Below are positions 4,253 through 34,197 of a stretch of 34,197 nt of DNA, piece by piece. Numbering within the stretch: position 1 is the stretch's first letter; every line of letters starts with the position of its first letter. This DNA is from an uncultured Bacteroidales bacterium (GTDB lineage: Bacteria > Bacteroidota > Bacteroidia > Bacteroidales > Bacteroidaceae). The notes under the pieces are model-generated. The model saw nothing but the letters and a program-made list of their open reading frames with translations, was not told the origin of the DNA and did no database searches. The position numbers were made by a program, and so were the translations under genes. The DNA is taken from the NCBI GenBank assembly GCA_902800925.1, contig CADCGD010000033.1, positions 1-34,197 of the forward strand, given 5' to 3'.

Positions 4253-6185
4253 AATCAAAATCCTCCGGTTTGTCTTCCTCGATGACGAGGTTGTCGATGA
4301 TGAAGTTCTGACGCTCCATCGTGTTCTTACCCATATAGTACTCCAAGAGTTTCTGCACCTGATCGTTCTTGTGGAGCGTTACCTGTTCCAGACGCATGTC
4401 AGGTCCGATGAAACCGGCAAATTCTTCAGGCGAAATCTCACCAAGACCCTTGAAGCGGGTTATCTCTGGATCAGGAGCTAACTCCTGAATAGCTTTCTGA
4501 CGTTCCTCTTCGCTATAGCAATAGCGAGTTACGAAGTCACCCTTCTTGGTGTCGTCGAGCATCTTCTTGTTCTTAATCTTCGTACGTTTGTTACGAACGC
4601 GGAACAAGGGGGTCTGCAACACATAGACATGACCTTTCTTGATGAGTTCAGGGAAGAACTGCAGGAAGAAGGTGATGATGAGCAGACGGATGTGCATGCC
4701 GTCGACATCAGCATCGGTAGCCACTATCACCTTATTATAACGGAGGGTATCGAGACCTTCCTCGATGTCGAGGGCAGCCTGCAAGAGGTTAAACTCCTCG
4801 TTCTCGTAGACCACCTTCTTGGTGAGTCCGAAGCAGTTGAGGGGCTTGCCTCGCAACGAGAAGACCGCCTGCGTATTGACATCACGACTCTTGGTGATGG
4901 AACCACTGGCCGAGTCACCCTCTGTGATGAAGATGCACGACTCTTCCTTCTTATCGTTCTTGACATCGGAGAAGTGGATGCGACAGTCGCGTAACTTACG
5001 GTTGTGCAGATTAGCCTTCTTGGCACGCTCTCGAGCCAGCTTGGTAACGCCAGCCATCGCCTTGCGTTCACGTTCCGTCTCCTTGATTTTACCCTCGATG
5101 ACCTCAGCAACATCCTGATGGATATGCAGGTAGTTGTCGACTTGCTGTTTGATGAAGTCGCCTACATATTTATTAATGGTGTCCCCATCGGGAGCCATCT
5201 GCGTAGAACCCAACTTGATCTTCGTCTGACTCTCGAAGACGGGCTCCTCCACATTGATGGCTATGGCAGCGACGATACCCGTACGGATGTCACCATATTC
5301 GTATTTACCGAAGAACTCCTTGATGGTCTTGGCAATATGCTCCTTGAAAGCACTCTGGTGGGTACCACCCTGCGTGGTGTGCTGACCGTTAACGAAGGAG
5401 TAATACTCCTCACCGTACTGGTTGGCATGGGTAAAGGCTATCTCGATGTCGTCACCTTGCAGATGGATAATGGGGTAGAGGGGGTCATTGGTCATGCGGT
5501 CTTTCAGCAAGTCCTGCAAGCCGTGACGACTGAGGATGCGCCGACCATTATACATAATAGCCAACCCTGTATTCAGGTAGGTGTAGTTACGCAGCATGTT
5601 CTCCACGATGTCGTCGTGGAAGGTATAGTCCTTGAATAGCGTGTTGTCTGGCTCAAAATAGATATAGGTGCCGTTCTCATCCTGGGTGTCCTCCGTATTG
5701 TCCGTCTGCAGAATGCCCCGTTCAAAGGTAGCACGACGCACCTTGCCATCACGATAGCTGGCCACCTCAAAGTGAATACTCAGCGCATTGACCGCCTTCA
5801 CACCCACGCCATTCAGACCTACCGACTTCTTGAAGGCCTTCGAGTCATACTTACCACCTGTGTTCAGCACGCTGACAGCCTCGATGAGCTTACCCTGCGG
5901 AATGCCACGACCATAGTCACGAACGGAGACACGCAGATTGTCGTCGATGGTGATCTCCAGGCGGTCGCCAGCCTTCATCTTGAACTCGTCGATGGAGTTG
6001 TCGATGACTTCCTTCAGCAACACGTAGATACCATCTTCTGGCAGAGAGCCGTCGCCCAAGCGTCCGATATACATTCCAGGACGGGTACGGACGTGTTCCA
6101 TGTCCGACAAGTGTCGGATATTATCGTCAGTATAATCCGGGGTGTTGGGTGTTGGGTGTTGGGTGTTAGTTATTTGTTCTTCCAT
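4245..6185 (-). CDS. parE: DNA topoisomerase IV subunit B
   Basis: A type IIA topoisomerase ATPase subunit of 646 residues, which with ParC decatenates daughter chromosomes. The GHKL ATPase motifs are clear ([17 protein letters not shown], and QTKIKLGS as the switch lysine), followed by the TOPRIM domain with EGDSASGS and [10 protein letters not shown]. It is called ParE rather than GyrB because the window has a separate canonical GyrB and because the TOPRIM context ([19 protein letters not shown]) is the ParE type. No parC is in the window. Codons 6-15 are made of four 7-bp repeats, encoding a Pro/Thr/Asn tail before the conserved YTDDNIRHL start of the domain; this tail is absent from the core fold and probably disordered. 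Confidence 0.93.
6141..6168. repeat. Perfect-register 7-bp array (GGTGTTG x4) inside parE
   Basis: Four adjoining units: GGTGTTG three times and GGTGTTA once. It lies within codons 6-15 of parE (minus strand unit CAACACC). Seven is not a multiple of three, so gain or loss of one unit would shift the ParE frame just after the start codon. Confidence 0.9.
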
Positions 6186-6199
6186 AATTACTCATCCTC

Positions 6200-7354
6200 T
6201 TACAATGTTTTCTTATAACACCTTCTGCGTTTATGTTGTATGTGCTCCAGATACTGCCACTGCGACTGCACCTTCTCGTTGGTTTCCATCTCGACATTCG
6301 TCTCACCCCACTTGAACCCATACTTCTGATAGATAGGAATCAAGTCGTAGAACAACAAGGCGTTAGCTCCTTTCTGCTGATATTCTGGCAAGATGCCAAT
6401 AAGCATCAGGTCGAGACACTCTGCCTTGTGGAACTTCAAAGCCCGCAGGCAATGCCACCAGCCAAAGGGCCAGAGACGTCCGTTCTTACACTTCTGCAGG
6501 GCACGTGTCATATTGGTGATGGAGATTCCTACACCTATTACCTCGTGGTTGGGCGTGTTCCAGTCTTCAATGAGACAGAGCATATCCATGTCGAGCATGG
6601 GGAAGTACATCTTCAGGTACTCGTCAATCTGACGCTCCGTCATCTGGGAATAGCCATAGAGGTGACCAAACGACTTGTTGACGACATCAAGCACCTTGCG
6701 GCCATACTGTTCCTTGCCGAATACCTGACTGCGCTTGGGGTGCATGGGGTGCAGGTTATAGCGCTTCATGACCATCTCAGCGACCTTGCGGAACTTCTCG
6801 GGCATGCCTTCCTTGGGCACGATGAGTTTGTACTCCACGTAGTCGTTGTCCTTGACAAAGCCGCCCAGCTGTTCAATATGTTGAGGGTAGTAAGGGTAGT
6901 TGTAGATGGTGGCCATGGTGCCCAACTGGTCGAAACCCTCAATGAGCATGCCCTCCGGGTCCATGTCGGTGAATCCTAACGGACCGATTATCTCTGTCAT
7001 GCCTTTCTCGCGGCCCCACCGTTCAACAGCATCAAAAAGCGCCTTAGACACTTCCATATCATCGATAAAATCAACCCATCCGAAGCGTACACTCTTGGAC
7101 TCCCAACGGTCATTGGCCCGATGGTTGATAATGCCAGCAATACGTCCTACGACCTTACCGTCGCGATAGGCCAGGAAATACTCCGCCTCGCAGAATTCGA
7201 AGGCAGCATTTTGGTCCTTGCTCAACGTATGAACCTCGTCGCTGTACAGGTTGGGGGCATCATACTCGTTACCCCGATACAAGTCGTAGTGGAGTTGGAT
7301 GAAAGCATCAAGCTCTTTCCTGTTGGTGACTTTTCTAATCTCTACTGGTGACAT
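6200..7354 (-). CDS. GNAT-fold acyltransferase-like protein of unknown substrate
   Basis: A 384-residue cytoplasmic protein. Residues 40-190 show a GNAT-like arrangement: the beta-strand pair EYFLAYRDGKVVGRIAGIINHRAN, then GWVDFIDD and a helix before ITEIIGPLGF-like segments. Near 315-365 is a second GNAT-like block (LMLIGILPEYQQKGANALLFYDLIP, with an R/Q-x-x-G-A/x acyl-CoA loop, then YGFKWGETNVEMETN). Proteins of this type are common in Bacteroidetes but I cannot assign a substrate. It precedes parE by 14 nt in the same operon and has its own well-formed promoter. Membership of the GNAT superfamily is fairly safe; the function is not known. Confidence 0.75.
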   Translation of the reverse strand: MSPVEIRKVTNRKELDAFIQLHYDLYRGNEYDAPNLYSDEVHTLSKDQNAAFEFCEAEYFLAYRDGKVVGRIAGIINHRANDRWESKSVRFGWVDFIDDMEVSKALFDAVERWGREKGMTEIIGPLGFTDMDPEGMLIEGFDQLGTMATIYNYPYYPQHIEQLGGFVKDNDYVEYKLIVPKEGMPEKFRKVAEMVMKRYNLHPMHPKRSQVFGKEQYGRKVLDVVNKSFGHLYGYSQMTERQIDEYLKMYFPMLDMDMLCLIEDWNTPNHEVIGVGISITNMTRALQKCKNGRLWPFGWWHCLRALKFHKAECLDLMLIGILPEYQQKGANALLFYDLIPIYQKYGFKWGETNVEMETNEKVQSQWQYLEHIQHKRRRCYKKTL

Positions 7355-7382
7355 TTGCTATACTCTCTTATAAACTATCTTG

Positions 7383-7414: not shown

Positions 7415-7418
7415 ATAT

Positions 7419-8597
7419 TTAACCAATTTTACGGCAAATAAATAGACTGTGCGCTCCGTCTGCCTCGGTAGTAGCAAAGATATATACATCGCCACCATCC
7501 TTCAATTTCAACTTTTTACGTAGCTGATCGACTGTCAGTGGAAAGTTGCGTACAGCAATATTTGCCTTTCCAACGCCTGTCAATGCATCCTTCAACTCAC
7601 GCTTGTTCATCGATGAAATGGCCAGTATTTCAAAACTGCGACCAGGGAAATCATCGATTTCATCGACAGAAAGAAACAGATGTGAGTTCACAGATACTTG
7701 TCTTACCGCATAGCGTTCCTCTAGCGCATCAAAGCATCCTGCCTTCATGATACTGGCATTGGGTTCGTAGAGGTGGGTTGGGTGATGGGTGAAGGGTGTT
7801 GGGTGTTTGGGGTTGGATGATGGTACTTCGAAAATATGGTCGTTGTTCACACATACCAGACGCAAGGGTCTAACCGCCGATTCCAGTACCAACAGCAGTT
7901 CCTTACATTCGTTGTCTACACTAACGATGTGTACCTCTGCAACATGCTGAAGGTCTGAAGCAGCCTTGCGCCAGTCGAGCATTGGCGATAGTTTAAGAAT
8001 GACTCGGTCTGCTTTCTGCATCAACACAGGTAGCAGTTCCATGACGTTCGGACTACAATCTGCGATGTCGTAGGTACGTCCCCCATGCTCGTCTCTGCGT
8101 GCTGGGTCCAGGTATATCACGTCTGCGTGGTCCAGCTGCGTTAAGTACGTTGCTGTGTCACAGCAACAAACGGAACAAGCTAAGCCAAGCGTGCGGAAAT
8201 TTTCCGTTGAAATGGAGCATAATTGTTCGTTTTGCTCTACATAGATGCGCTCTTTGAAGCCTTGCGACATCCAATAGAAGTCCACACCAAAACCACCCGT
8301 CAGGTCTACAAAAACGCCATCCCCCTCGCCTTTTGGAGAGGGGTTAGGGGTGAGGCTCGCCTTGTAACGAGCTGTCTGTTCACTGGAACATTGTTCCATG
8401 TTCAGATGAGGCGGATAGACAACACCATCATGGGCGGCCCATGAAGGCAGCTTCTTCAGGGCCGTCTGTCGTCCTGCTATCTGTTGCAACGCCATCGGCA
8501 TATCCACATCAGCATCTTTCGTCCCCTGCAGTGCCAATTTACGCACATCGTCAGTAGCGTGCTGGCGGACGAATTCCCACGTCTGTTCATTAATCAT
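7419..8597 (-). CDS. PG_1098-like class I SAM methyltransferase with THUMP-like C-terminus
   Basis: A 392-residue protein with a Rossmann-type methyltransferase core: motif I DLTGGFGVDF, acidic end of strand 2 in VEQNEQL, and the DPARRDEHGGR block seen in the Bacteroidetes PG_1098 family. The C-terminal third (FPLTVDQLRKKLKLKDGGD...) matches the THUMP-like module, so an RNA substrate is likely, though the modified base is unknown. The start is ATG 8597-8595, set by the promoter only 4 nt upstream. Two repeat elements are inserted in frame: residues about 81-93 (SLTPNPSPKGEG-type palindrome, just before motif I) and about 260-276 (7-bp array, Pro/His/Thr-rich), each in a linker between folded parts. 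Confidence 0.85.
   Translation of the reverse strand: MINEQTWEFVRQHATDDVRKLALQGTKDADVDMPMALQQIAGRQTALKKLPSWAAHDGVVYPPHLNMEQCSSEQTARYKASLTPNPSPKGEGDGVFVDLTGGFGVDFYWMSQGFKERIYVEQNEQLCSISTENFRTLGLACSVCCCDTATYLTQLDHADVIYLDPARRDEHGGRTYDIADCSPNVMELLPVLMQKADRVILKLSPMLDWRKAASDLQHVAEVHIVSVDNECKELLLVLESAVRPLRLVCVNNDHIFEVPSSNPKHPTPFTHHPTHLYEPNASIMKAGCFDALEERYAVRQVSVNSHLFLSVDEIDDFPGRSFEILAISSMNKRELKDALTGVGKANIAVRNFPLTVDQLRKKLKLKDGGDVYIFATTEADGAHSLFICRKIG
7771..7819. repeat. 7-bp array (TTGGGTG type) inside the methyltransferase gene
   Basis: Seven units in register: AGGTGGG, TTGGGTG, ATGGGTG, AAGGGTG, TTGGGTG, TTTGGGG, TTGGATG. It encodes a Pro/His/Thr-rich linker (residues about 260-276) on the minus strand with no stop codon. 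Confidence 0.85.
8320..8356. repeat. GC-rich palindromic repeat inside the methyltransferase gene
   Basis: The sequence CCCTCGCC-TTTT-GGAGAGGG (8323-8342) folds as a hairpin with one G.A mismatch, followed by GTTAGGGGTGAGG. On the minus strand it encodes LTPNPSPKGEG. I recognise this peptide as a frequently met translated repeat in bacterial genomes. It sits directly upstream of SAM motif I. Confidence 0.75.
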
Positions 8598-8601
8598 GGT
8601 A

Positions 8602-8609
8602 CAAAGATA
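8602..8609 (-). promoter_or_regulatory. -7 box 4 nt from the methyltransferase start codon
   Basis: TATCTTTG (8609-8602, minus strand) is followed by only four bases (TACC) before ATG 8597-8595. In this promoter class transcription begins a few bases after the box, so the mRNA would be leaderless. No clear -33 TTTG is seen at the right distance. Confidence 0.6.
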
Positions 8610-8629
8610 CAAATAAAGTTTAAATTATC

Positions 8630-8664
8630 CATAATTCTCAATTCTCAATTCACAATTTTCAATT
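8630..8664. repeat. 7-bp array (CTCAATT type) between divergent promoters
   Basis: Five units: CATAATT, CTCAATT, CTCAATT, CACAATT, TTCAATT. It lies exactly between the divergent -7 boxes of the methyltransferase gene and dapB and would occupy the -33 region of dapB. Confidence 0.85.
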
Positions 8665-9420: not shown

Positions 9421-9438
9421 GAGAATGGAGAAGAGAGA
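9418..9438. repeat. Weak 7-bp-register stretch at the dapB-lepB junction
   Basis: TAAGAGA, ATGGAGA, AGAGAGA continue in 7-bp register from the dapB stop codon (TAA 9418-9420) and supply the first lepB ATG (9425). It is purine-only low-complexity sequence, so it is a weaker member of the family. Confidence 0.4.
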
Positions 9439-10861
9439 AAAGAAAAAACTGAACATGAAGGTGCAGTGGGCAAAGTTCATCTGCGTCATAGTGCTCTACC
9501 TGCTGTTCCTTTACTGGGTAGGTTCATGGTGGGGACTGCTCGTGACACCTTTCATCTATGATGTTTATATCACCAAGAAGATTAACTGGCAATGGTGGAA
9601 GGATGCAGAGGGCCCTGTTCGTTGGGTGATGTCGTGGGTTGACGCTCTCGTCTTTGCCCTCGTAGCCGTCTACTTCATCAACCTGTTCTTCTTCCAAAAC
9701 TACGTCATTCCATCGAGTTCGTTGGAGAAGTCGCTCTTGACAGGTGACTACCTCTTCGTTAGCAAGGTGAGCTATGGTCCCCGTATCCCTGAGACGCCAT
9801 TGACGATGCCATTGACCCAGCATACGATGCCCATCTTCGAGTGTAAGTCGTATATCGAGTGGCCCCATTGGGACTATCGTCGCGTCAAGGGTTTGGGCAA
9901 AGTACAGCTCAACGATATCGTCGTCTTTAACTTCCCTGCGGGTGACACCATCTGTAGCGATGCACGTTATCAGGCCTACGACTATTATCAGTTGTGCTAC
10001 CAGATTGGCTATCAGGTCTATCCACAACGCCCAAATCCCGATTCGCTGAGCATAGAGCAGTTGCCGCTGTATTTCAACACCATCTATCAGGCAGGTAAAC
10101 AGACCATTGAGGCCAATCCTCAGGAGTATGGACTCATTGACACCCGCCCTACTGATCGTCGCGAGAACTATGTAAAGCGCTGTGTGGGTCTTCCTGGACA
10201 GACACTGCAGATAAAAGACCGCGTCGTCTATATCAATGGCAAGGCCAACAAGGAGCCAGAGAACGTACAATACACGTATCACCTGAAGCTAAAGCGCCAT
10301 TTCACCGATGAAGAGATGCAGGAATGGGGTATCACGATGGAAGAGTTGAAGGACCTCAACAACTACGGATATATGCCGATGACCAACAAGACGGCAGACA
10401 TCTTGAAGAAACGTCCCGACATTGTGGAGAGCATTCAGTTGAATACTGATGCCAGCGACTTAGACACCTATCCTCTGAATGGCAACATGCATTGGACCCG
10501 CGACAACTATGGTCCTATCTGGATTCCTGCCAAGGGCGAGAGCATCGACTTGACGCTGAAGAATCTGCCCATCTACGAGCGCCCCATCCGTACTTATGAA
10601 GGCAATAAGCTGGAGGTGAAGGATGGCAAGATATTCATCAACGACAAGGAGACCACGAAGTACACCTTCAAGATGGACTATTACTGGATGCAGGGAGACA
10701 ACCGTCACAACTCACTCGACTCCCGCTACTGGGGCTTCGTTCCTGAAGACCATATCGTGGGTAAGCCCATCTTCATCTGGTGGAGTTCAGATCCAGACCG
10801 AGGAGGTTTTAGTGGTATCCGCTGGAATCGTCTGTTCCGCTTTGTTGATAATATCAAGTAA
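9425..10861 (+). CDS. lepB: Signal peptidase I, long Bacteroidetes form
   Basis: An inner-membrane protease that removes signal peptides from exported proteins. It has 478 residues, with two to three N-terminal membrane segments (about 17-45 and 70-92) before the catalytic domain. Box B IPSSSL carries nucleophile Ser99 and box D YVKRCVGLPG carries general base Lys251; box E MQGDNRHNSLDSRYWG is intact. The extra length against E. coli LepB (324) comes from insertions between boxes C and D (about 175-240) and between D and E (about 275-400). ATG 9455 is an alternative start that removes ten charged residues encoded by repeat-like sequence. It should be the active enzyme of the pair. Confidence 0.95.
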   Translation: MEKREKKKLNMKVQWAKFICVIVLYLLFLYWVGSWWGLLVTPFIYDVYITKKINWQWWKDAEGPVRWVMSWVDALVFALVAVYFINLFFFQNYVIPSSSLEKSLLTGDYLFVSKVSYGPRIPETPLTMPLTQHTMPIFECKSYIEWPHWDYRRVKGLGKVQLNDIVVFNFPAGDTICSDARYQAYDYYQLCYQIGYQVYPQRPNPDSLSIEQLPLYFNTIYQAGKQTIEANPQEYGLIDTRPTDRRENYVKRCVGLPGQTLQIKDRVVYINGKANKEPENVQYTYHLKLKRHFTDEEMQEWGITMEELKDLNNYGYMPMTNKTADILKKRPDIVESIQLNTDASDLDTYPLNGNMHWTRDNYGPIWIPAKGESIDLTLKNLPIYERPIRTYEGNKLEVKDGKIFINDKETTKYTFKMDYYWMQGDNRHNSLDSRYWGFVPEDHIVGKPIFIWWSSDPDRGGFSGIRWNRLFRFVDNIK

Positions 10862-10862
10862 G

Positions 10863-10906
10863 GGTGATAGGTGATAGGTGATAGGTGATGACGTAAGAAG
10901 TAAGAG
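10863..10906. repeat. 7-bp array (GGTGATA x4) filling the lepB-lepB2 gap
   Basis: GGTGATA three times and GGTGATG once (10863-10890), continuing in looser 7-bp register (ACGTAAG, AAGTAAG, AGATGAT) up to the start codon at 10907. The array begins one base after the lepB stop codon and so occupies the whole intergenic space. Confidence 0.85.
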
Positions 10907-11407: not shown

Positions 11408-12063
11408 GTGCGGCACTGCTACAGACCACCTATTTCGGACCCATCCAGTGGTATCAGAAACTATATCGATACGACCACTGTCTGATAGAGCAGTACGACT
11501 CCTACCAAAAGCAAACCTACCGCAACCGTTGTGTCATAGCTACCGCTAACGGCCCACAGGCGCTAACAGTACCTGTGGAAGGAACAAACGAGAAATGTCT
11601 TGTTAAAGACCTGCGTATTAGTGACCACAACAACTGGCGACGAATACATTGGAACGCTTTGTTGTCGGCCTATAGCGAAAGCCCCTTCTTTGACTATTAT
11701 GCCGACGATATCCATCCTTTCTTTGAAAAGAAATACGACTTCTTAATCGATTTCAACGAGGCCATCCGTCAGAAGGTGTGCGAACTATTGGATATCCATC
11801 CGAACGTAGTTCATAGTTCACAGTTCATAGTTCATAATTATGAGCCGCAGCCAGCGCAGAACAACTATGAACTATGCACTATGAACTATGAACTGATTGC
11901 CGACTTCCGTGAAGTCATTAATGCCAAGCACCCACAGGCAGACCCAGATTTCCAGCCTCAACGCTATTGGCAAGTCTTTGAAGGGAAGCACGGCTTTCAG
12001 GCCAACCTCTCGATACTCGACCTTCTCTTCAATATGGGACCAGAATCAATTTTTTATCTATAA
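11404..12063 (+). CDS. WbqC-like family protein
   Basis: A 219-residue member of the WbqC family (LLQTTYFGPIQWYQKL at the N-terminus; LRISDHNNWRRIHWNALLSAYSESPFFDYY; FQANLSILDLLFNMGPES at the C-terminus). The family is often linked to O-antigen or glycan loci but its reaction is not established. It overlaps the previous gene by 4 nt (ATGA), so it is coupled to the signal peptidase pair. Residues 135-164 are encoded by a repeat element inserted in frame between two conserved blocks, giving Tyr/Glu/Asn-rich sequence with no match to the family. The protein is otherwise full length. Confidence 0.85.
   Translation: MSAALLQTTYFGPIQWYQKLYRYDHCLIEQYDSYQKQTYRNRCVIATANGPQALTVPVEGTNEKCLVKDLRISDHNNWRRIHWNALLSAYSESPFFDYYADDIHPFFEKKYDFLIDFNEAIRQKVCELLDIHPNVVHSSQFIVHNYEPQPAQNNYELCTMNYELIADFREVINAKHPQADPDFQPQRYWQVFEGKHGFQANLSILDLLFNMGPESIFYL
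11806..11895. repeat. Complete inverted-repeat element with 7-bp-array arms inside the WbqC gene
   Basis: Left arm: GTAGTTC, ATAGTTC, ACAGTTC, ATAGTTC, ATAATTA (11806-11840). Centre of 22 nt (11841-11862) containing GCAGCCAGCGCAG. Right arm: AACTATG, AACTATG, CACTATG, AACTATG, AACTG (11863-11895), the inverted complement of the left arm. The 90-bp element adds 30 codons without a stop. Confidence 0.9.
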
Positions 12064-14614: not shown

Positions 14615-14935
14615 ATGACGCAAGAAGAGAAAACAAAGCTTGAAGAGCGTATCGTTGACGTCTTGAAAACCGTCTACGACCCAGAGATACCTGTCAACAT
14701 CTACGACCTGGGAATGATCTACAAGATCGATGTGCAGGATGATGGCTCTGTAGATATGGACATGACATTCACTGCTCCTAACTGTCCTGCTGCCGACTTT
14801 ATTCTTGAAGATGTACGCACCAAGGTAGAGAGCGTTGAAGGTATCAAGGGAGCCAATGTCAATCTCGTATTCGAACCCGCATGGGACCAGTCGATGATGA
14901 GTGAAGAAGCACGCGTCGAACTAGGGTTCGACTAG
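14615..14935 (+). CDS. MIP18/PaaD-like (DUF59) Fe-S assembly protein
   Basis: A 106-residue cytosolic protein of the DUF59 family (SufT/PaaD/MIP18), implicated in Fe-S cluster maturation. The motif DPEIPVNIYDLGMIYKI (about 22-38) and FTAPNCPAAD with its conserved Cys are typical. The start is ATG 14615, placed by the upstream promoter; the longer in-frame extension would cross that promoter. It stands divergent from a Fur-family gene and is followed by lpxH through a 7-bp repeat array whose first unit holds its TAG stop. Confidence 0.9.
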   Translation: MTQEEKTKLEERIVDVLKTVYDPEIPVNIYDLGMIYKIDVQDDGSVDMDMTFTAPNCPAADFILEDVRTKVESVEGIKGANVNLVFEPAWDQSMMSEEARVELGFD

Positions 14936-14981
14936 TGAATAGTGAAAAGAGAATAGTGAAAAGTGAATAGTGAAAAGTCAT
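14933..14981. repeat. 7-bp array (TAGTGAA type) filling the gap to lpxH
   Basis: Seven units in register: TAGTGAA, TAGTGAA, AAGAGAA, TAGTGAA, AAGTGAA, TAGTGAA, AAGTCAT. The first unit contains the stop codon of the PaaD-like gene and the last runs into the lpxH ATG (14980). Confidence 0.95.
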
Positions 14982-15747: not shown

Positions 15748-15810
15748 AGCGGGCTTCGCCCTAGTGAAGAGTGAATAGTGATTAGTGAATAGTGAAGAGA
15801 GAAGAGAGAA
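15748..15810. repeat. GC hairpin plus 7-bp array between lpxH and the sugar kinase gene
   Basis: GGGC-TTC-GCCC (15751-15761) within GCGGGCTTCGCCCTA is followed in register by TAGTGAA, GAGTGAA, TAGTGAT, TAGTGAA, TAGTGAA, GAGAGAA, GAGAGAA (15762-15810). The last base is the A of the kinase ATG. It begins 3 nt after the lpxH stop codon. The same hairpin-plus-array layout recurs at 33314-33359. Confidence 0.92.
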
Positions 15811-18136: not shown

Positions 18137-18165
18137 ACTATTCACTATTCGTTATTCACTATTCA
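18137..18165. repeat. 7-bp array (ACTATTC type) filling the pta-ackA gap
   Basis: ACTATTC, ACTATTC, GTTATTC, ACTATTC, then ACT (18137-18167 region). On the minus strand the unit is GAATAGT, the same as the arrays at 14933 and 15762 read in the other direction. The pta stop codon (18165-18163) lies inside it and the ackA ATG is 2 nt beyond it. Confidence 0.92.
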
Positions 18166-19221: not shown

Positions 19222-19240
19222 CTATAAAATTATGAAATAT

Positions 19241-19261
19241 GAATGACGAATGACGAATTAT
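19241..19261. repeat. Short 7-bp array (GAATGAC type) between cdaA and pta
   Basis: GAATGAC, GAATGAC, GAATTAT in register, in the gap after the cdaA stop codon and in the -33 region of pta. Only three units, so weaker than the others. Confidence 0.65.
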
Positions 19262-20855: not shown

Positions 20856-20865
20856 CAAAATATTT

Positions 20866-20893
20866 CATAATGCATCATGCATAATTCATAATT
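20866..20893. repeat. 7-bp array (CATAATT type) between folP and murF promoters
   Basis: CATAATG, CATCATG, CATAATT, CATAATT in register, lying between the divergent -7 boxes of folP and murF, as at 8630-8664. Confidence 0.85.
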
Positions 20894-20927: not shown

Positions 20928-22325
20928 ATGGAAATAAAGGAACTTTATAAGCTCTATCAGCAGCATCCGTGTATCACGACAGACTCGCGTAACTGTCCTG
21001 AGGGTAGCATCTTTCTGGCCTTGAAGGGTGAGTCGTTCAATGGCAACAAGTTCGCTCTCCAGGCGCTGGAGAAAGGTTGTGCCTATGCTATTATAGATGA
21101 AGAGTGTAGAACGGAGAATGTAGAGTTTGCTACTGCGCAGCCATCAAGCGCAGCCCCTACATCGGTAGAAAACTCAACACTCAACACTCTAAACTCTAAA
21201 CTAATCCTCGTAGACGACTGCCTTCAGACCTTTAAAGACTTAGCCCGTGAGCATCGACGCCAGTTTGAAATGCCGATGGTGGGTATCACAGGCACAAATG
21301 GCAAAACTACTACGAAGGAACTGATTCGTGCCGTCTTGACAGAGTGCTACAATGTGATGGCTACGGAGGGTAACTTCAACAACGACGTGGGTGTGCCCAA
21401 AACCTTGTTCCGCCTTAACAATGACCACGATATTGCAGTCGTTGAAATGGGTGCCTCGCATCCTGGCGATATCAAAACGCTGGTGGAGACTGCCGAACCC
21501 ACCTGTGGTCTCATCACCAACGTGGGTCGTGCTCACCTACAGGGTTTCGGTTCCTTCGAAGGCGTCTGTAAGACCAAGGGCGAACTCTATGATTTCCTCA
21601 TCGCTCACGATTGTCCCATCTTCGTCAATCGCGACAACGAGTATCTGATGAAGATGGTGAAAGAAAGAGGAGGCAATCCAGACATCTATTACTACGGCCA
21701 GAGCGATAACGAGGACATCCTCATTCGTGGCGAAGTCATCTCATGCGCTCCTTTCCTGAAGTTCCGCTGGCGCGAGCAAGACCATGATGCGAACTACACC
21801 AGCGAATGGATGGAGGTACAGACCCACCTGATTGGTGCATACAACCTCGACAACATGCTGGCTGCCATCACTGTGGGTTACGTCAACAACATCCCCTTCG
21901 AGCAGATTAACCATGCACTGGCAAGTTACGTGCCTACCAACAACCGTTCACAGTTGACGGAGACAGAGAAGAACCACCTCATCGTCGATGCTTATAATGC
22001 CAATCCAACATCAATGAAGGCCGCCATCGACAACTTCCGCCTCATGGAGGTGTCGCCCAAGATGGCCATCCTGGGTATGATGGGAGAACTGGGTGACGTC
22101 TCGCAAGAGGAGCATCAGAAAATCATTGCCCAGTTACAGCAGGCCGGCTTCGACGAGGTCTGGCTCGTAGGTGCAGAGTTCCAGAAAGTCTCATCCCCCT
22201 TCCGCACCTTTGCGAATGTCGACGAGGTGAAGGAAGCTATCGCCCAAGAGCAACCACAGGGCAGATATATCCTCATCAAGGGTTCGAACAGCGTCAAACT
22301 TTTCCAGTTGCCTGAATTACTTTAA
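20928..22325 (+). CDS. murF: UDP-N-acetylmuramoyl-tripeptide--D-Ala-D-Ala ligase
   Basis: An ATP-dependent ligase that adds D-Ala-D-Ala to the UDP-MurNAc-tripeptide, the last cytoplasmic step of the peptidoglycan monomer. The 465-residue protein has an N-terminal substrate domain (TTDSRNCPEGSIFLALKGE), the P-loop GITGTNGKTTTKEL (119-132), a central domain with HPGDIKTLV and NVGRAHLQGF, and the C-terminal ligand domain with DAYNANPTSM. Residues about 59-91 in the N-terminal domain are encoded by an in-frame inverted-repeat element and have no counterpart in the family, lying between IIDEE and LILVDD. It ends in a 4-nt tail-to-tail overlap with recO. Confidence 0.95.
   Translation: MEIKELYKLYQQHPCITTDSRNCPEGSIFLALKGESFNGNKFALQALEKGCAYAIIDEECRTENVEFATAQPSSAAPTSVENSTLNTLNSKLILVDDCLQTFKDLAREHRRQFEMPMVGITGTNGKTTTKELIRAVLTECYNVMATEGNFNNDVGVPKTLFRLNNDHDIAVVEMGASHPGDIKTLVETAEPTCGLITNVGRAHLQGFGSFEGVCKTKGELYDFLIAHDCPIFVNRDNEYLMKMVKERGGNPDIYYYGQSDNEDILIRGEVISCAPFLKFRWREQDHDANYTSEWMEVQTHLIGAYNLDNMLAAITVGYVNNIPFEQINHALASYVPTNNRSQLTETEKNHLIVDAYNANPTSMKAAIDNFRLMEVSPKMAILGMMGELGDVSQEEHQKIIAQLQQAGFDEVWLVGAEFQKVSSPFRTFANVDEVKEAIAQEQPQGRYILIKGSNSVKLFQLPELL
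21102..21198. repeat. Complete inverted-repeat element with 7-bp-array arms inside murF
   Basis: Left arm: GAGTGTA, GAACGGA, GAATGTA, GAGTTTG (21102-21129). Centre (21130-21170) holds GCGCAGCCATCAAGCGCAGC flanked by CTAC and GTAG. Right arm: AACTCAA, CACTCAA, CACTCTA, AACTCTA (21171-21198), the inverted complement of the left. The centre shares GCAGCCA...GCGCAG with the WbqC-gene element at 11841-11862. Confidence 0.9.
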
Positions 22326-23068
22326 GCCCATAGTTCCTGAAGCACGCCAAGACTCTTGAGCTCAGGGAACTGTGGGATGTGTAGACGATAGTAGTGGAGG
22401 AGGACGTCAACGATACGGTTGCGATCGTAATGCGATAACTGGAACAGATGCATCGTGGGGAAATCCATACGCATCAAGGTGTGAATAAGTTGCGAGTCCT
22501 TGCTGTCAAGGAAATCACGATGCAGTGGAGTGGTTGTACAGAAGCGACCCTCGCGCAAGTCGAACAGCAAAGACTGTTCTCTCACCTCTCTCCCCTCACT
22601 TCTCACCTCTAGATTAGGATAGAAACCTAAGAATCGACTCATACGCATCAAAAAGGTAAGGTGGAAGTTGGCATAACCAGTCGTTGCCATATCGAGCCAC
22701 AGCATGGAATCGCAGACATAGGCGAAGAGCAATTTATCCTGCTGTTCAGAACGTAAAGCATGATATAGGAACTCTGCGATGAAGAGCGACAGCGCCAGTT
22801 TCTCAGGGGAGTAAGGTATGGAGGTATAGGCTGTCAACAGATGGGCATCCTTCAGTTTCTGTAGTTGTACGTTCTGACGCACGTCACACTCCACTTCCAA
22901 GAGCGTCATAGGTTGAAAATATTGCTTCTTCATGCGCCCCTTGGAGGTCTTAGGTATGGAGATGATAAAAGACTGTCTACCAACTTCTTCAGTAAACATA
23001 TCCACAATCATTCTGGACTCGCCATACTTGAAAGAATGGAGTACTATAGCCCTTGTTTTCACTAACAT
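22322..23068 (-). CDS. recO: DNA repair protein RecO
   Basis: A RecF-pathway mediator that helps load RecA onto SSB-covered DNA. The 248-residue protein has an N-terminal OB fold (VKTRAIVLHSFKYGESRMIVDMFTEEVGRQSFII) and a helical C-terminal part in which FHLTFLMRMSRFLGFYPNL is typical of Bacteroidetes RecO; these lack the zinc-finger cysteines. The start is ATG 23068; an upstream in-frame ATG would include promoter sequence. Residues about 154-163 (Arg/Glu-rich) come from a 7-bp array inserted between FYPNLE and FDLREG. Confidence 0.9.
   Translation of the reverse strand: MLVKTRAIVLHSFKYGESRMIVDMFTEEVGRQSFIISIPKTSKGRMKKQYFQPMTLLEVECDVRQNVQLQKLKDAHLLTAYTSIPYSPEKLALSLFIAEFLYHALRSEQQDKLLFAYVCDSMLWLDMATTGYANFHLTFLMRMSRFLGFYPNLEVRSEGREVREQSLLFDLREGRFCTTTPLHRDFLDSKDSQLIHTLMRMDFPTMHLFQLSHYDRNRIVDVLLHYYRLHIPQFPELKSLGVLQELWA
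22580..22607. repeat. 7-bp array (TCTCACC type) inside recO
   Basis: TCTCACC, TCTCTCC, CCTCACT, TCTCACC in register. It encodes Arg/Glu/Val-rich residues on the minus strand between two conserved RecO blocks. Confidence 0.85.
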
Positions 23069-23083
23069 CGCCCCAAAATTACA

Positions 23084-23091
23084 CAAAAATA
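23084..23091 (-). promoter_or_regulatory. -7 box of recO
   Basis: TATTTTTG (23091-23084) on the minus strand, 15 nt before the recO ATG. The leader would be short, about 10-12 nt. No TTTG is seen at the -33 position. Confidence 0.5.
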
Positions 23092-23120
23092 CGCAATTAT
23101 TGCATTTTTCTTTAAGAAAA

Positions 23121-23152
23121 TTTGTCCATTTCGGAAAAAAGCAGTACCTTTG
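23121..23152 (+). promoter_or_regulatory. Promoter of tRNA-Glu and rpsT
   Basis: TTTG (23121-23124), 20 nt, TACCTTTG (23145-23152): a full Bacteroidetes promoter. It is the only good promoter ahead of tRNA-Glu and rpsT, so both are probably on one transcript. Confidence 0.85.
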
Positions 23153-23170
23153 CACCCACTTTTGCGCATG

Positions 23171-23191
23171 GTGTTCATTATTCATTGTTCA
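23171..23191. repeat. Short 7-bp array in the leader of tRNA-Glu
   Basis: GTGTTCA, TTATTCA, TTGTTCA in register, between the promoter and the tRNA-Glu gene. It would be part of the 5' leader removed in tRNA processing. Confidence 0.65.
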
Positions 23192-23751: not shown

Positions 23752-23759
23752 TATCTTTG
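23752..23759 (+). promoter_or_regulatory. -7 box of gyrB
   Basis: TATCTTTG lies 24 nt before the gyrB ATG (23784). No clean TTTG is present 19-21 nt upstream. Confidence 0.6.
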
Positions 23760-23783
23760 CATCCAAATTGCAAAAATAGCACA

Positions 23784-28102: not shown

Positions 28103-29194
28103 ATGGAAAAATCCAATCAGAACTATTGTGTGATATTAGCCGGAGGAAAAGGTCGTCGGTTGTGGCCTTGTAGCCGTGAAGATCACCCCAAGCAGTTTAT
28201 CGACTTCTTTGGTGTGGGTCGCACGCAGCTGCAGTCGACATTTGACCGCTTCTCGAAGGTGATACCACTTGAGAATATATTTATATGTACGTGTCAGGAA
28301 TACCTGTCGATGGTCAAAGAGCAGGTGCCTGAGATTGACGAGCGCAACATCCTGGTAGAACCCGTCAACCGCAATACGGCACCCAGCGTGGCGTGGGCCA
28401 ATATGCGCATCAAGCGCACCAATCCCGATGCGAATATCATCATTACGCCGTCTGACCAGCTGGTCGTTGATGAGGCATCGTATATGCGTAGTCTGGAGAC
28501 AGGCATCAGCTATGTCTCCGAGCATGACGTGCTGTTGGTGATGGGTGTGAAGCCTACGCGTCCGGAGCCTGGCTACGGCTATATCCAGATGGGCGACCCG
28601 AGTTGCAAGCCCGACGTCTTCAAGGTGAAATCGTTCACCGAGAAGCCTGAGCGTGAGTTTGCCAAGATGTTCATGGAGAGCGGTGAGTTCTATTGGAATA
28701 CTGGTGTGTTTATCACCAACAGTCGCAAACTGACACAGAGCTTCGAGAGCATCTTCCCCAGCGTGTTGCGCAATCTGAAGTTTGAAAAGCCCCAGTACAA
28801 CTATGACGAGGAACTGGAGTATGTCGCCCAGAACTATCCGCGCTACCCTAACCTCTCCATTGACTATGCCATTCTGGAACATAGCGAGGACGTCTACATG
28901 ATGAAGTGCGACTTCGGCTGGGCCGATCTGGGCACGTGGCATGCTGTCTATGAGTATATGAGCAAGAGCGAGGGCGACAACGTGGTGGTTAACTCAGAAG
29001 TCATGCTGGAAGACTCGCGTAACAACGTCATCAAGTTGCCAAAGGGTAAGGTGGCCGTCATCAACGGACTGGACGGCTATATTGTGGCCGAAGAGGGCAA
29101 CGTCTTGCTCATCTGCAAGAAGGGCGACTCGTCGGCACTGGTGCGCAAGTATGTCAACGAGGTACAGATGAAATATGGTGACGACTTCGTTTAA
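28103..29194 (+). CDS. manC: Mannose-1-phosphate guanylyltransferase
   Basis: Makes GDP-mannose from mannose 1-phosphate and GTP, the donor for mannose, fucose and related sugars in surface glycans. The 363-residue protein has the nucleotidyltransferase signature VILAGGKGRRLWPCSREDHPKQF (part), the mannose-phosphate motif FTEKP, and FYWNTGVF and FGWADLGTW, all hallmark for GMP. It is the short form without the isomerase domain. It is linked to a GT4 glycosyltransferase by a 7-bp array. The -10 region upstream reads TACCTTAG, one base off the -7 consensus. Confidence 0.95.
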   Translation: MEKSNQNYCVILAGGKGRRLWPCSREDHPKQFIDFFGVGRTQLQSTFDRFSKVIPLENIFICTCQEYLSMVKEQVPEIDERNILVEPVNRNTAPSVAWANMRIKRTNPDANIIITPSDQLVVDEASYMRSLETGISYVSEHDVLLVMGVKPTRPEPGYGYIQMGDPSCKPDVFKVKSFTEKPEREFAKMFMESGEFYWNTGVFITNSRKLTQSFESIFPSVLRNLKFEKPQYNYDEELEYVAQNYPRYPNLSIDYAILEHSEDVYMMKCDFGWADLGTWHAVYEYMSKSEGDNVVVNSEVMLEDSRNNVIKLPKGKVAVINGLDGYIVAEEGNVLLICKKGDSSALVRKYVNEVQMKYGDDFV

Positions 29195-29226
29195 TTCAAA
29201 ATTCGCAATTCATAATTCGTAATTAA
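29192..29226. repeat. 7-bp array (TAATTCA type) filling the manC-glycosyltransferase gap
   Basis: TAATTCA, AAATTCG, CAATTCA, TAATTCG, TAATTAA (29192-29226). The first three bases are the manC stop codon and the last base is the A of the next ATG. Confidence 0.95.
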
Positions 29227-30323
29227 TGATAGTTGGTATTGACGCTAAGCGCATCGTGCGCAATGGAACGGGACTAGGCAGTTATGGTCGCACGCTGGTG
29301 AACGACCTTATCCGCTTGGGCGACAGTGACATGCAACTGCGGTTGTATGCCCCTGACGAAGGTCGCGACGAGTTGCGCAGCCAGATTATCGAGGGTGCTG
29401 AGTTCTGTTATCCCAAGGGACATCCTGCCGCCCTGCGCAAGGCGTGGTGGCGCTCACGTAGCATTGTCAGCGATTTGGTGCGCGATGGCGTAGAGGTCTA
29501 TCACGGCTTGTCAGGTGAACTGCCAATAGGCCTGCGTAAGGCCGGCATCCGTGGCATCGTCACCATCCACGACCTTATCTTTATGCGCCATCCAGAGTAT
29601 TACCATTGGCTCGATACCAAGATCTACGAGTGGAAGTTCCGCCAGTCATTGCGCGAGGCCGACCACATCATCGCCATCAGCGAGCGTACCCGTCAGGACA
29701 TCCTGGAATTGGGTGGTGAGGAATATGCCGACCGCATCAGCGTCATCTATCAGAGTTTTGCACCCCACTTCTCTAGTTCTGTCCAGGACGAGCGCAAGGC
29801 CGCTGTCCGCGAGAAGTATAAGCTGCCCCAGCGCTTCGTGCTGAATGTCGGCACCATCGAGGCCCGTAAGAATCTCGCGCTGGCCGTCGAGGCTGTCGAC
29901 CTGTTACCACAGGATATCCATCTCGTAGCTGTTGGTCGCCAGACCGATTATGTCCGTCAGTTGCCCCACAGCGAACGTCTGCACCTGTTGAGTGGTGTGC
30001 CCGACCAAGACCTCGCAGCCATCTATGCATTGGCCGAAGCTTTTGTTTATCCGTCACGCTACGAAGGGTTTGGCATTCCCATCATCGAGGCCATTGCTGC
30101 CGGACTGCCTGTTGTCGCCTGTACGGGTTCGTGTCTGGAGGAAGCCGGTGGACCTCATAGTCGCTATGTCGGTCCTGACGACGTCATCGGTATGGCAGAG
30201 GCACTGAAGATGTCGCTGCGTGGTGCCCGCGGTCGTCAGGAGCGCATTCTGCGCAGTCGTGAGTATATCCGGAAGTTTGAGGGTAACGACGTAGCCCGTC
30301 AAGTTGCGGAACTGTATAAGTAA
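29226..30323 (+). CDS. Family 4 glycosyltransferase
   Basis: A 365-residue GT-B-fold retaining glycosyltransferase. The N-terminal domain opens with IVGIDAKRIVRNGTGLGSYGRTLVNDL; the mid part VYHGLSGELPIGLRKAGIRGIVTIHDLIF and IIAISERTRQDI is typical of GT4 mannosyl- or related transferases. The donor domain has RFVLNVGTIEARKNL and the E-x7-E motif within EAFVYPSRYEGFGIPIIEA. Next to manC it may use GDP-mannose, but that is inferred from position only. It ends in a repeat array where it meets the convergent HhH gene. Confidence 0.92.
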   Translation: MIVGIDAKRIVRNGTGLGSYGRTLVNDLIRLGDSDMQLRLYAPDEGRDELRSQIIEGAEFCYPKGHPAALRKAWWRSRSIVSDLVRDGVEVYHGLSGELPIGLRKAGIRGIVTIHDLIFMRHPEYYHWLDTKIYEWKFRQSLREADHIIAISERTRQDILELGGEEYADRISVIYQSFAPHFSSSVQDERKAAVREKYKLPQRFVLNVGTIEARKNLALAVEAVDLLPQDIHLVAVGRQTDYVRQLPHSERLHLLSGVPDQDLAAIYALAEAFVYPSRYEGFGIPIIEAIAAGLPVVACTGSCLEEAGGPHSRYVGPDDVIGMAEALKMSLRGARGRQERILRSREYIRKFEGNDVARQVAELYK

Positions 30324-30355
30324 TTACGAGTTACGAATTACGACTTTTGAATTAC
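30321..30355. repeat. 7-bp array (GAATTAC type) between convergent stop codons
   Basis: TAATTAC, GAGTTAC, GAATTAC, GACTTTT, GAATTAC. The first unit holds the glycosyltransferase TAA (30321-30323) and the last unit holds the TAA of the HhH gene (30354-30352). Confidence 0.93.
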
Positions 30356-32340: not shown

Positions 32341-32348
32341 ACTACCTG

Positions 32349-32380: not shown

Positions 32381-32421
32381 TATTGGACAAAGATAATAAC
32401 AATTGTAGCACAAGGATTCTT

Positions 32422-33309
32422 TTATTTCACCTTCGCAACCAGCGTATCTGGATAGCTGGGCATAGCACCGTTCTGTGTGCAGACGTAGGCCGAGACTTCT
32501 ACAGCTATGCGGTGAGCCTCCTCTATGGGTTTGCCGTTAAGGATGGCGGCACAGAAACTGCCCGTGAACGAGTCGCCAGCACCGACGGTATCTGCCACGG
32601 TGACCTTGGGTGTCTCTTGGAACGAGGTCAGACCGGGGGCAAAGACGTACGAACCGTTAGTACCACAGGTCAGCACCAGCATCTTCAACTTGTAGTCAGC
32701 CAGAATCTTCTCGCAGATGCCTCGCATGTCGAGGTCGTCATAGCCATACATACGCTTGATGACTACCAATTCCTCGTCGTTGATCTTCAGGATGTTGCAA
32801 CGTTTCAGCGACTCCTCGATGACGTCCTTGGAATAGAACTGCTGACGCAGGTTGATATCAAAAATCTTCACGCAGTCTGCTGGGGTATCGTCCAGGAACT
32901 GACGAATGGTAGCCCATGACACCACGTTTCGCTGAGCCAGTGAACCAAAGCAGACGGCACGACAACTCTTGGCAATCGTTGCTATCTCAGGGGTATAGGG
33001 AATGTTGTCCCATGCCACGCCCTCCTTAATCTCATAAGCGGGAATACCGTCGCCAGAGAGTGTCACCTGTACCGTACCCGTTGGATAAGGCACACGCGGC
33101 ATCAGATAGTTCAACTTGTGCTCCTTCAGCGCTTCAATGGTTTCTTCAGCCAGGGCGTCCTCACCCAATGCACTGATGGCCAGCGTCTGCAGGCCAAACT
33201 GTCCGGCATGATAAGCGAAGTTGGCAGGTGCACCACCCAGTTTCTTTCCTTCGGGAAGCACGTCCCACAGCGCTTCACCCAGTCCTACTACATAACGTTT
33301 TGTATTCAT
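32422..33309 (-). CDS. PfkB-family fructokinase
   Basis: A 295-residue ribokinase-family enzyme that likely phosphorylates fructose to fructose 6-phosphate. It starts with VVGLGEALWDVLPEGKKLGGAPANFAYHA (fructokinase-type first motif), has FDINLRQQFY and NDEEL in the middle, and the catalytic DTVGAGDSFTGSF near 250. It lies 50 nt downstream of an FHS-family sugar transporter gene on the same strand, forming a transport and phosphorylation pair as in Bacteroides fructose loci. Confidence 0.92.
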   Translation of the reverse strand: MNTKRYVVGLGEALWDVLPEGKKLGGAPANFAYHAGQFGLQTLAISALGEDALAEETIEALKEHKLNYLMPRVPYPTGTVQVTLSGDGIPAYEIKEGVAWDNIPYTPEIATIAKSCRAVCFGSLAQRNVVSWATIRQFLDDTPADCVKIFDINLRQQFYSKDVIEESLKRCNILKINDEELVVIKRMYGYDDLDMRGICEKILADYKLKMLVLTCGTNGSYVFAPGLTSFQETPKVTVADTVGAGDSFTGSFCAAILNGKPIEEAHRIAVEVSAYVCTQNGAMPSYPDTLVAKVK

Positions 33310-33313
33310 ATCT

Positions 33314-33359
33314 TTTATTATTTATCAATTATCATTTATCATTTAGGGCGATGCCCGCT
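33314..33359. repeat. 7-bp array plus GC hairpin between transporter and fructokinase genes
   Basis: TTTATTA, TTTATCA, ATTATCA, TTTATCA, TTTAGGG (33314-33348) followed by GGGC-GAT-GCCC (33346-33356). Read on the minus strand the hairpin core is GCGGGCATCGCCCTA, one base different from 15749-15763, and the array follows it in the same order. Confidence 0.9.
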
Positions 33360-34197
33360 TTATCGTTTGATTCTTGGAATATAAGTAAAGAGGTAGATGA
33401 CACCAATGGCCATGACGGCAACGGCACCGGCCTGTCCCATGGCATCGCTCATGAATCCCATGATGAGTGGGAAGATGGTTCCACCAAATAGTCCCATAAT
33501 CATCAGACCAGAAACTTCGTTCTGCTTGTCAGGCACAGAGAGCAGTGCCTCAGAGAAGGCCATCGAGAAGATGTTCGAGTTGCCATAGCCCACCAGTGCG
33601 ATTGCGGTATAGAGCACCATCTTCGACTGTCCACCAAACATCAGCGCCATCGAGGCAGCCATCAGACAGACGCTGATGATGAAGAACCAGCGGGTCTTCA
33701 TGACACGCAGGAAGAAAGACCCCGTCAGGGCACCGATTGTACGGAAGATAAAATAGAGCGAGGTGGCAAAAGCTGCCTCGTTGAGCGACATCCCCACACG
33801 TTCCATCAGCAGTTTAGGTGCAGTGGTATTGGTACCTACATCAATACCCACATGACACATAATGCCAAAGAACGACAACAGCACGATGGGTTTCGACAAC
33901 AGCTTGAAGCAGTCCACAAATTCAGAGAAGACAGACTGACCTCTCACCTCTTGCTCCTTATCCCTTGCTCCCTGCTCCTCATAAATCGGTGTCACCCACA
34001 GCAGCAAGGTGCCCAATACACCTACCACAAAGTAGACGATGAACAGTACGCGCCAGTCGTAGCCAAACGATGGCATGGCTGCTGTGGCACCCCACATGGC
34101 CAGATAGGGAGCCAGGAACGAGGCGATAGCCTTGACAAACTGTCCGAAGGTCAGCGTCGAGGCCAGATTCTTGTCGCCAATAATGAGCATGGCCAAC
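33360..34197 (-). CDS. FHS-family sugar:H+ symporter (MFS), 5' end beyond the window
   Basis: The C-terminal 279 residues of an MFS transporter of the FucP / glucose-galactose type. At least seven hydrophobic segments are visible, e.g. WRVLFIVYFVVGVLGTLLLW, VLLSFFGIMCHVGIDVGTNT and FFIISVCLMAASMALMF. IFSMAFSEAL and GGTIFPLIMGFMSD are typical of the fucose/hexose permease branch. Adjacent fructokinase suggests fructose as substrate. The central cytoplasmic loop contains a 14-residue Glu/Arg-rich insert from a 7-bp array. The gene continues past the right edge. Confidence 0.88.
   Translation of the reverse strand, partial: LAMLIIGDKNLASTLTFGQFVKAIASFLAPYLAMWGATAAMPSFGYDWRVLFIVYFVVGVLGTLLLWVTPIYEEQGARDKEQEVRGQSVFSEFVDCFKLLSKPIVLLSFFGIMCHVGIDVGTNTTAPKLLMERVGMSLNEAAFATSLYFIFRTIGALTGSFFLRVMKTRWFFIISVCLMAASMALMFGGQSKMVLYTAIALVGYGNSNIFSMAFSEALLSVPDKQNEVSGLMIMGLFGGTIFPLIMGFMSDAMGQAGAVAVMAIGVIYLFTYIPRIKR
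33940..33981. repeat. 7-bp array (CTCCTTG type) inside the sugar transporter gene
   Basis: Six units: CCTCTCA, CCTCTTG, CTCCTTA, TCCCTTG, CTCCCTG, CTCCTCA. 42 bp, encoding 14 Glu/Arg/Gln-rich residues in the cytoplasmic loop between two membrane halves. Confidence 0.85.

Follow-up and report, generated by a model that had tools for sequence, protein, structure and literature searches.

What lays down short tandem arrays across a bacterial genome if the repeated sequence keeps changing and the seven-base step stays? This question is raised by a 34,197-nucleotide stretch of an uncultured Bacteroidales bacterium (contig CADCGD010000033.1 of assembly GCA_902800925.1; the whole stretch is called the window here, GC content 50%). 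The genome that carries it, the host genome, is a Prevotella-type metagenome-assembled genome (MAG) of 2.72 Mb in 66 contigs, 82.9% complete. An earlier note on the window had described heptamer arrays of varied unit at 17 positions and suggested a process that makes such arrays rather than copying one sequence. We find that the arrays are real, are limited to part of the Prevotella lineage and differ in unit between orthologous sites. With a probability of about one half, we propose that slippage and fold-back copying specific to this lineage make them, and that copying to new places and exaptation are secondary.

A seven-base step dominates the window and its genome

A strict array was defined, for a mechanical scan, as a 14-base stretch with at least 12 matches at a given lag. 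The window contains 15 strict arrays at lag 7 compared with 0.03 per dinucleotide shuffle, and at most two at any other lag from 4 to 13 (0, 2, 0, 0, 0 and 0 at lags 8 to 13); Tandem Repeats Finder agrees with the lag-7 scan. Of the 17 positions of the earlier note, 12 overlap a strict lag-7 array, three are weaker and two are marginal. The weaker three, at 22580, 29192 and 33940, are tandem repeats that do not pass the strict test. The marginal run at 21102 (14/21 lag-7 matches) forms the left, degenerate arm of a palindrome with its right arm at 21169, and the other, at 23171, is weak (Table 1). Strict arrays at 9421, 11863 and 21169 had been absent from the earlier list.

The host genome was sampled twice, as stretches L009-L028, picked near TAGTGAA matches and hence biased, and as stretches L029-L048, which make up 400 kb from the first 20 kb of 20 contigs outside the first sample. 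The 400-kb sample contains 68 lag-7 arrays, compared with 18 at lag 8, 27 at lag 9 (16 intergenic, 11 coding) and 0-1 lag-7 arrays in five Markov simulations; the genome-wide excess that the earlier note had proposed to look for is present. The window is about 2.6 times richer in lag-7 arrays than this sample. According to home-made gene calls, 42 of the 68 arrays are intergenic and 26 coding. With the window included, 50 of 83 are intergenic; intergenic sequence then has 1.06 arrays per kb and coding sequence 0.085. Lag 7 leads even within coding sequence of the 400-kb sample (26 arrays, some possibly miscalled, versus 12 at lag 6 and 11 at lag 9). Because selection alone would favour multiples of three, this lead counts for a formation process, and we argue that array formation, not the reading frame, sets the seven-base step.

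Contrary to the earlier claim, the period is not exactly seven throughout: octamer arrays form a second, smaller class, often with CG in the unit and at the same kinds of sites. Some of the CG-containing octamer arrays exceed 100 bp and are longer than the listed heptamer arrays (L033 15276-15486, L036 18198-18319, L040 14075-14178). The proposed rule of one or two T per unit also fails for 4 of the 17 units, which carry three T on the purine-richer strand.

Units differ at orthologous sites

For comparison with relatives we used the best 80 of 593 confirmed AckA loci (1.41 Mb; best match 99% identity), whose record titles read Bacteroidales, Prevotellaceae, Prevotella or Xylanibacter. In addition, the flanks of the window arrays were placed in 112 genomes or loci, some possibly of the same species. 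The 68 arrays of the 400-kb sample comprise 29 canonical units, and 278 arrays in the 80 relatives comprise 95. At orthologous places, where the counts of distinct units include single-base differences, the arrays are gained, lost and changed in unit, and the case of identical arrays everywhere, against which the earlier note had set its idea, does not occur. The pta-ackA junction has a lag-7 array at 22/79 places and a lag-8 array only at seven more, with 10 units; lpxH has 8/55, six more with lag 8 only, and 7 units; upstream of pta the figures are 18/40 and 10 units; and between the divergent folP/murF promoters they are 21/30, none with lag 8 only, and 11 distinct units. Few orthologs (0-16) were recovered at the remaining sites. 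Arrays within one base of the window unit account for 3/22 at pta-ackA and 3/8 at lpxH. The TAGTGAA array of the window at lpxH corresponds to GGTTATT in G033 and to an octamer in L049, and TAGTGAA is kept in G007 and L053; between the window and G007 the unit is identical and the length differs by 15 bp (shorter). The sole array-bearing ortholog found for ORF 7419-8612 (L053) has a different 7-bp unit, and identical arrays were seen in L049 at 8614 and in L104 at pta-ackA.

At the pta-ackA junction of L049 and L054 and in the MurF linker of L053, another repeat of GACCCCCTCCCA... type, about 140 bp long at the pta-ackA junction, replaces the heptamer array.

Within arrays, neighbouring units are most alike. 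At distances of 1-4 units, identity is 0.81, 0.76, 0.74 and 0.68 in 41 host arrays of at least 35 bp, and 0.82, 0.77, 0.75 and 0.69 in 130 relatives' arrays. Agreement of the preceding codon and stop codon with the unit, taken at the array's lag, is 105/180 at pta-ackA (89.6 permuted) and 44/90 at lpxH (38.0 permuted), with kinship ignored. Identical units are commoner within a genome than between genomes (7.6% versus 2.4%; 0/2000 permutations, kinship likewise ignored). Two simpler regularities were rejected: a 14-bp higher-order period is not the rule, lag 14 beating lag 7 in only 7/41 host and 29/130 relatives' arrays, and a stop codon inside every unit is ruled out by the stop-free GGTTATT array of G033.

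We propose that slippage-like duplication repeatedly creates and rewrites arrays with a 7-bp, less often 8-bp, step, and that it would act where two genes meet, in promoters and in protein loops that tolerate change. Duplication and loss within an array would keep it homogeneous, so that the unit at a site could be replaced with the period unchanged. Fold-back copying in replication or repair may yield an inverted partner, and with it hairpins whose arms match despite unit differences. Existing arrays and palindromes, in part built around a fixed TTTGCTACCGC core, would also be copied to new places, and selection would retain those that fit: AT-rich between promoters, stop-free in coding sequence, and T-rich and hydrophobic as signal-peptide cores. 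Most arrays would probably have no dedicated function.

Inverted pairs and a recurrent palindromic core

Among the 83 arrays of the window and the 400-kb sample, 25 (13/50 intergenic, 12/33 coding) are accompanied within 130 bp by an inverted partner that exceeds the 99th percentile obtained with random placement. Nineteen inverted pairs were listed in both host samples (0.82 Mb) and 23 in relatives, a few rows overlapping. The host pairs comprise 10 intergenic, five within coding sequence, three flanking a called start and one mixed, and several of those listed as intergenic also flank an ATG.

Some pairs enclose a core, TTTGCTRCCGC...GCGGYAGCAAA, which was found in 6 of 35 genomes searched (seven palindromes in the host genome, 14 in G034, five in G023, two in G022 and one each in G033 and G031; none with the reversed-pattern control). 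The arms around this common core differ, being AGAGTGT-like in coding copies and AGTGAAG- or AAAGTGA-like in intergenic ones. The sequence GCTACCGC is present in the 3' flank of 17/161 host arrays (0.11 expected) and 15/278 relatives' arrays (0.13 expected). In L036 (8967-9097), a 49-bp higher-order repeat occurs three times, each with an ATTTATC array, the core and GCGAATGCG.

A palindromic element of about 105 bp recurs in frame at ten places of the host genome, MurF included. Its 35-residue read gave ten stop-free sense matches including itself (E <=5.6e-6) among 24 rows, the others being antisense reads of the same places or weaker. The open frames that carry it in frame span 139 to 1152 residues, the shortest possibly not a gene, and only the MurF gene was identified. 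At the murF site all 30 MurF genes compared are in frame, and in 29/29 relatives the stretch is shorter (24-90 nt, median 30, versus 99). Three relatives have another lag-7 repeat at this spot, and the MurF of G028 (L164) has a different in-frame palindrome-like insert of 90 nt. The RNA of the MurF element folds with a z score of -3.2.

Copying is also indicated by a degenerate 26-mer, TATTCACTATTCACTGTTCACTATTC, present at 12 places in G031, two in the host genome and one in G007 among 35 genomes (reversed control 0). At 12 of the 15 places the 26-mer is read as LFTIHCSLF in the position of a signal peptide; one copy is intergenic and adjoins the core, and two are ambiguous. Selection for the LFTIHCSLF read could have picked the same variant several times over, but the intergenic copy speaks for copying.

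The constant core in six genomes, the enrichment of GCTACCGC in the flanks of host and relatives' arrays, the ten in-frame copies and the exact 26-mer at 12 places in one genome would all be expected of small non-autonomous mobile palindromes moved by an enzyme, similar to repetitive extragenic palindromes (REPs) or miniature inverted-repeat transposable elements, with single arrays as half elements or remnants. As a general explanation this nevertheless appears unlikely. The core is absent from most arrays, units vary at fixed sites, and G034, the genome richest in cores, is array-poor (2 in 35 kb). Y1_Tnp (PF01797), the transposase family of REPs, has no match in the high-array genomes G008, G019, G023, G030 and G035 and has matches in low-array genomes such as G010, G004 and G029; some genomes are incomplete. 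A mobile palindrome accounts for the core-bearing copies, not for most arrays.

Leader and signal-peptide arrays change together in bamA

According to a rough filter, 12/161 host arrays (both samples and the window) and 4/278 relatives' arrays lie in signal-peptide-like N-termini, a few of these being doubtful reads. Examples among the array-bearing genes resemble bamA, skp and porU, named from sequence knowledge rather than a family search. Many of these signal peptides end in A-Q, as expected from the Bacteroidetes Q-rule as given in a part of PMC5837995. Two composite signal-peptide queries of the host genome were abandoned, having returned 31 and 4 matches at E up to 10, mostly weak.

An ortholog search matched bamA in 29 of 30 genomes. 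The signal-peptide stretch contains an array at lag 7 or lag 8 in 10/29 bamA and 6/28 skp genes. The bamA leader array and the array encoding the core of the signal peptide vary from species to species, but in 6 or 7 of 10 genomes the two remain complementary. A genome's own signal peptide is the best partner of its own leader in six (G000, G033, G007, G022, G020 and G013), ranks second in G018 and is 4th, 8th and 9th in G032, G031 and G025; in G022, one foreign leader ties the own leader's score. Own pairs have a mean score of 34.3, compared with 20.7 for cross pairs among array genomes and 14.8 for the rest, and no permutation out of 20000 reached the own-pair mean. For skp, the own-pair sum is 126 versus 97.8 (p 0.015), which rests on G000 and G033; kinship was ignored in both tests. 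Six leader-to-signal-peptide RNAs of the host genome fold with z scores of -4.7 to -8.0, and the arms pair together in five.

Such pairs would also arise if a lineage-specific DNA-writing activity placed matching arrays of 7- or 8-bp step to the left and right of a start codon in a single event. One arm would become the leader, and the in-frame read of the other would become a new hydrophobic core of a signal peptide. We regard this as a speculative idea with modest odds. If true, one-event writing would give these Prevotella a permanent source of signal peptides, leader hairpins and protein loops.

The covariation of the bamA arms and the folding of the six RNAs could alternatively reflect selection for a function that reads period and composition rather than sequence, such as tuning of translation or promoter geometry by leader or spacer arrays, or start-codon hairpins controlling envelope-protein export. 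The span of the folP/murF arrays, 33-40 bp in 17/21 and 96-140 bp in four, agrees with such a function, as does the position of 34 arrays in tandem gaps, of which 20 end within 15 nt of a start codon and 22 begin within 15 nt of a stop; the gaps are short, however, and these are raw counts without a random-placement control. Many orthologs are array-free (57/79 pta-ackA junctions without lag 7, 19/29 bamA and 22/28 skp signal-peptide stretches), and arrays also occur within coding sequence and between convergent genes. Maintenance of the arrays by such selection is rather improbable in our judgement.

The arrays are limited to a group of Prevotella

The 80 relatives' loci contain 19.7 arrays per 100 kb at lag 7, 6.3 at lag 9 and 3.4 at lag 8; lag-7 arrays occur in 71 of the loci and nine have none. 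The lag-7 excess is absent from 382 kb of 20 genomes that belong to other families of the order (0.5 per 100 kb). Density within the genus is patchy, from 0 to 70 per 100 kb in 33 genomes sampled at 7-400 kb each, mostly with small counts, and 12 of the 33 lie at 0 to 2.5 per 100 kb in small samples. The array-rich lineage is a group of Prevotella, mostly ruminant-derived according to record titles. On an LpxH+MurF tree, the high/low label is somewhat clustered, with 8 changes versus a shuffled mean of 11.4 (14/500 shuffles as low). A single origin within the genus was rejected, as six of these changes are forced by well-supported branches. The highest density, 14 lag-7 arrays in 20 kb, was found in G008 (L249), on a separate branch of the tree. 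A literature search with partial coverage turned up no work on heptamer arrays in Prevotella.

This distribution bears on general slippage of bacterial polymerases with a 7-bp footprint, an idea put forward for the heptanucleotide repeats of many genomes (Mrazek 2007, as cited in passages of PMC4679880 and PMC4692102). In its favour, heptanucleotides are reported to be the commonest class of long simple sequence repeats (SSRs) in most genomes. Array-poor relatives should share the replicase, so a general footprint fails to explain the low densities in the 20 other-family genomes and in 12 of the 33 genus genomes (small samples), and we consider it very unlikely. Chance, low complexity or assembly artefact, suggested by the 66 contigs of the MAG, can be dismissed given 0-1 simulated arrays against 68 in 400 kb and the arrays in 71/80 relatives' loci, among them Xylanibacter brevis ATCC 19188 (L054; 6 lag-7 arrays in 21 kb).

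Weighing slippage and fold-back copying

Slippage with fold-back copying covers most of the facts, and no gene responsible for it was found. Several observations weigh against it. Units are not always replaced: 11/18 arrays upstream of pta and 7/21 at folP/murF lie within one base of the window unit. The exact recurrence of a degenerate array and that of the core element show copying, which slippage does not explain. Across the genomes sampled in the genus, the presence of neither Y1_Tnp nor the Y-family polymerase domain (PF00817) tracks array density. In the leaders, the skp signal-peptide array is the best partner of its own leader in only 2/6 genomes, the lowest-energy fold of the host bamA leader (z -4.7) does not pair arm with arm, and leader arrays are barely purine-richer than other short gaps (0.578, n=34, versus 0.542, n=68). 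Slippage is, moreover, inferred from a comparison of sequences and not from a strain-level series.

RAYT/Y1_Tnp and the Y-family polymerase were rejected as makers of the arrays, since density and their presence do not go together; no Y-family polymerase match was found in G000 or G033, each about 83% complete. A cyanobacterial origin was also rejected, the organism being of Prevotella type. The earlier suggestion of a process that makes heptamer arrays is upheld in that the unit varies and the period stays, and needs amending in that copying also occurs.

Map of the window

The arrays and palindromes of the window are collected in Table 1. Two GyrB/ParE-type genes lie in the window (4245-6185 and 23757-25757), the first with a heptamer array in its first codons. 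Small GGGC-N3-GCCC-like hairpins directly precede several arrays (window 15751-15761 and 33346-33356; also in L036 and L040). The -7 boxes in the table were assigned from the Bacteroidetes motif.

Table 1 Heptamer arrays and palindromes of the window
Positions	Strand	Feature	Remark
6140..6181	-	GGGTGTT array (sense AACACCC) in first codons of ParE/GyrB-like gene 4245-6185 (minus)	
7777..7823		TGGGTGA array inside ORF 7419-8612 (minus)	
8614..8664		AATTCTC array between two divergent genes	beside presumed Bacteroidetes-type -7 boxes
9421..9448	+	GAGAAAA array at start codon of signal-peptidase-like gene 9425-10861	
10860..10905	+	GGTGATA array filling the junction of two signal-peptidase-like genes	
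11805..11894	+	palindrome in frame inside ORF 11404-12063; arms: CATAGTT array 11805-11839, inverted AACTATG array 11863-11894	RNA fold z -9.3
14930..14978	+	TAGTGAA array from stop codon of SUF-associated gene to start codon of lpxH-like gene	
15763..15810	+	TAGTGAA/AGTGAAG array after small GGGCTTCGCCC hairpin, ending at start of kdgK-like gene	
18137..18170	-	pta-ackA intergenic array, sense unit GAATAGT	compared at 79 orthologous places
19228..19260		AATTATG/AATGACG array upstream of pta	beside presumed -7-like box
20860..20893		ATAATTC array between divergent folP-like and murF genes	
21097..21203	+	palindromic insertion in the reading frame of murF (residues about 60-92)	order: heptamer arm, TTTGCTACTGC core and loop, followed by core and heptamer arm in inverted form
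22579..22610		CTCTCAC array inside recO ORF 22322-23185 (minus)	weaker
23164..23191	-	weak TAGTGAA-like run near recO start	13/21 lag-7 matches
29192..29224	+	TAATTCA array at junction of two sugar-metabolism genes	clearer at lag 14
30322..30353		AATTACG array between two convergent genes	
33309..33345	-	TAAATGA array ending at ribokinase-like start codon	preceded by GGGC-N3-GCCC hairpin
33939..33978		weak heptamer-like run with indels	14/21 lag-7 matches

Relation to known repeats and significance

The arrays are a variant of bacterial heptanucleotide repeats, set apart by unit differences under a kept period, by matched inverted arms and by recruitment into signal peptides and protein loops. 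Like short tandemly repeated repetitive (STRR) sequences and long SSRs, they show a 7-bp excess over chance and over other periods and are mainly intergenic. The STRR sequences that Mazel reportedly described in filamentous cyanobacteria in 1990 are likewise short heptamer arrays, with several unit sequences per genome. A few fixed units per genome are typical of them, in contrast to 29 units among 68 arrays here. The present arrays, which also belong to a different phylum, are distinguished by the many units found in one clade, by units that differ at orthologous sites, by inverted pairs, and by signal-peptide and in-frame coding copies.

Rickettsia palindromic elements are small and palindromic and lie in frame inside protein-coding genes. 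The element found in murF resembles them in that one palindrome occurs in one frame in several genes and, for MurF only, the insertion is absent or different in orthologs. Intragenic enterobacterial repeat units (PMC2759123) are also reported as small repeats in frame inside protein-coding genes. Compared with both, heptamer-array arms surround the TTTGCTACCGC core here, and outside genes arrays of this kind are also found by themselves. GTAG-tagged REP elements, as described in passages of PMC3733652 that do not name Bacteroidetes among the GTAG phyla, share with the core that they are short palindromes; the core contains GGTAGC, which lies in the stem and not in an unpaired tag. The features of REPs moved by RAYT were not found, as Y1_Tnp does not follow array density and an unpaired GTAG tag is missing; the core-bearing genomes G034 and G022 have a Y1_Tnp match and G023 (56% complete) has none.

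Passages of MacGregor 2015 (PMC4679880) describe TAACTGA direct repeats in Beggiatoaceae, cyanobacteria and five Bacteroidetes, with 2-6 copies in the main genome, mostly directly before start codons, strain-specific histories and 7-nt indels between close strains. The unit there is fixed and related heptamers are rarely repeated, whereas here the unit varies and octamers occur; TAACTGA was seen once, inside a mixed array (L034 2448), and is not a characteristic unit. The GGGAATC and GGGGA(C/T)T repeats of Xanthomonas and Nostoc, according to passages of Rehm 2015 (PMC4692102), are intergenic heptamer arrays, some inverted, that vary in length and sequence between close relatives. Their unit is of G-quadruplex type, in contrast to the mostly A-rich units without a common motif found here.

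Heptamer repeats are reported to be over-represented in bacteria, and the reason for seven is the question. The existence of relatives with and without arrays, together with the unit differences at orthologous sites, makes it testable in culturable isolates. Some arrays may form a hairpin over the start codon of envelope genes with arms that change together. In these genomes, the arrays are a visible route from non-coding repeats to signal peptides and protein insertions.

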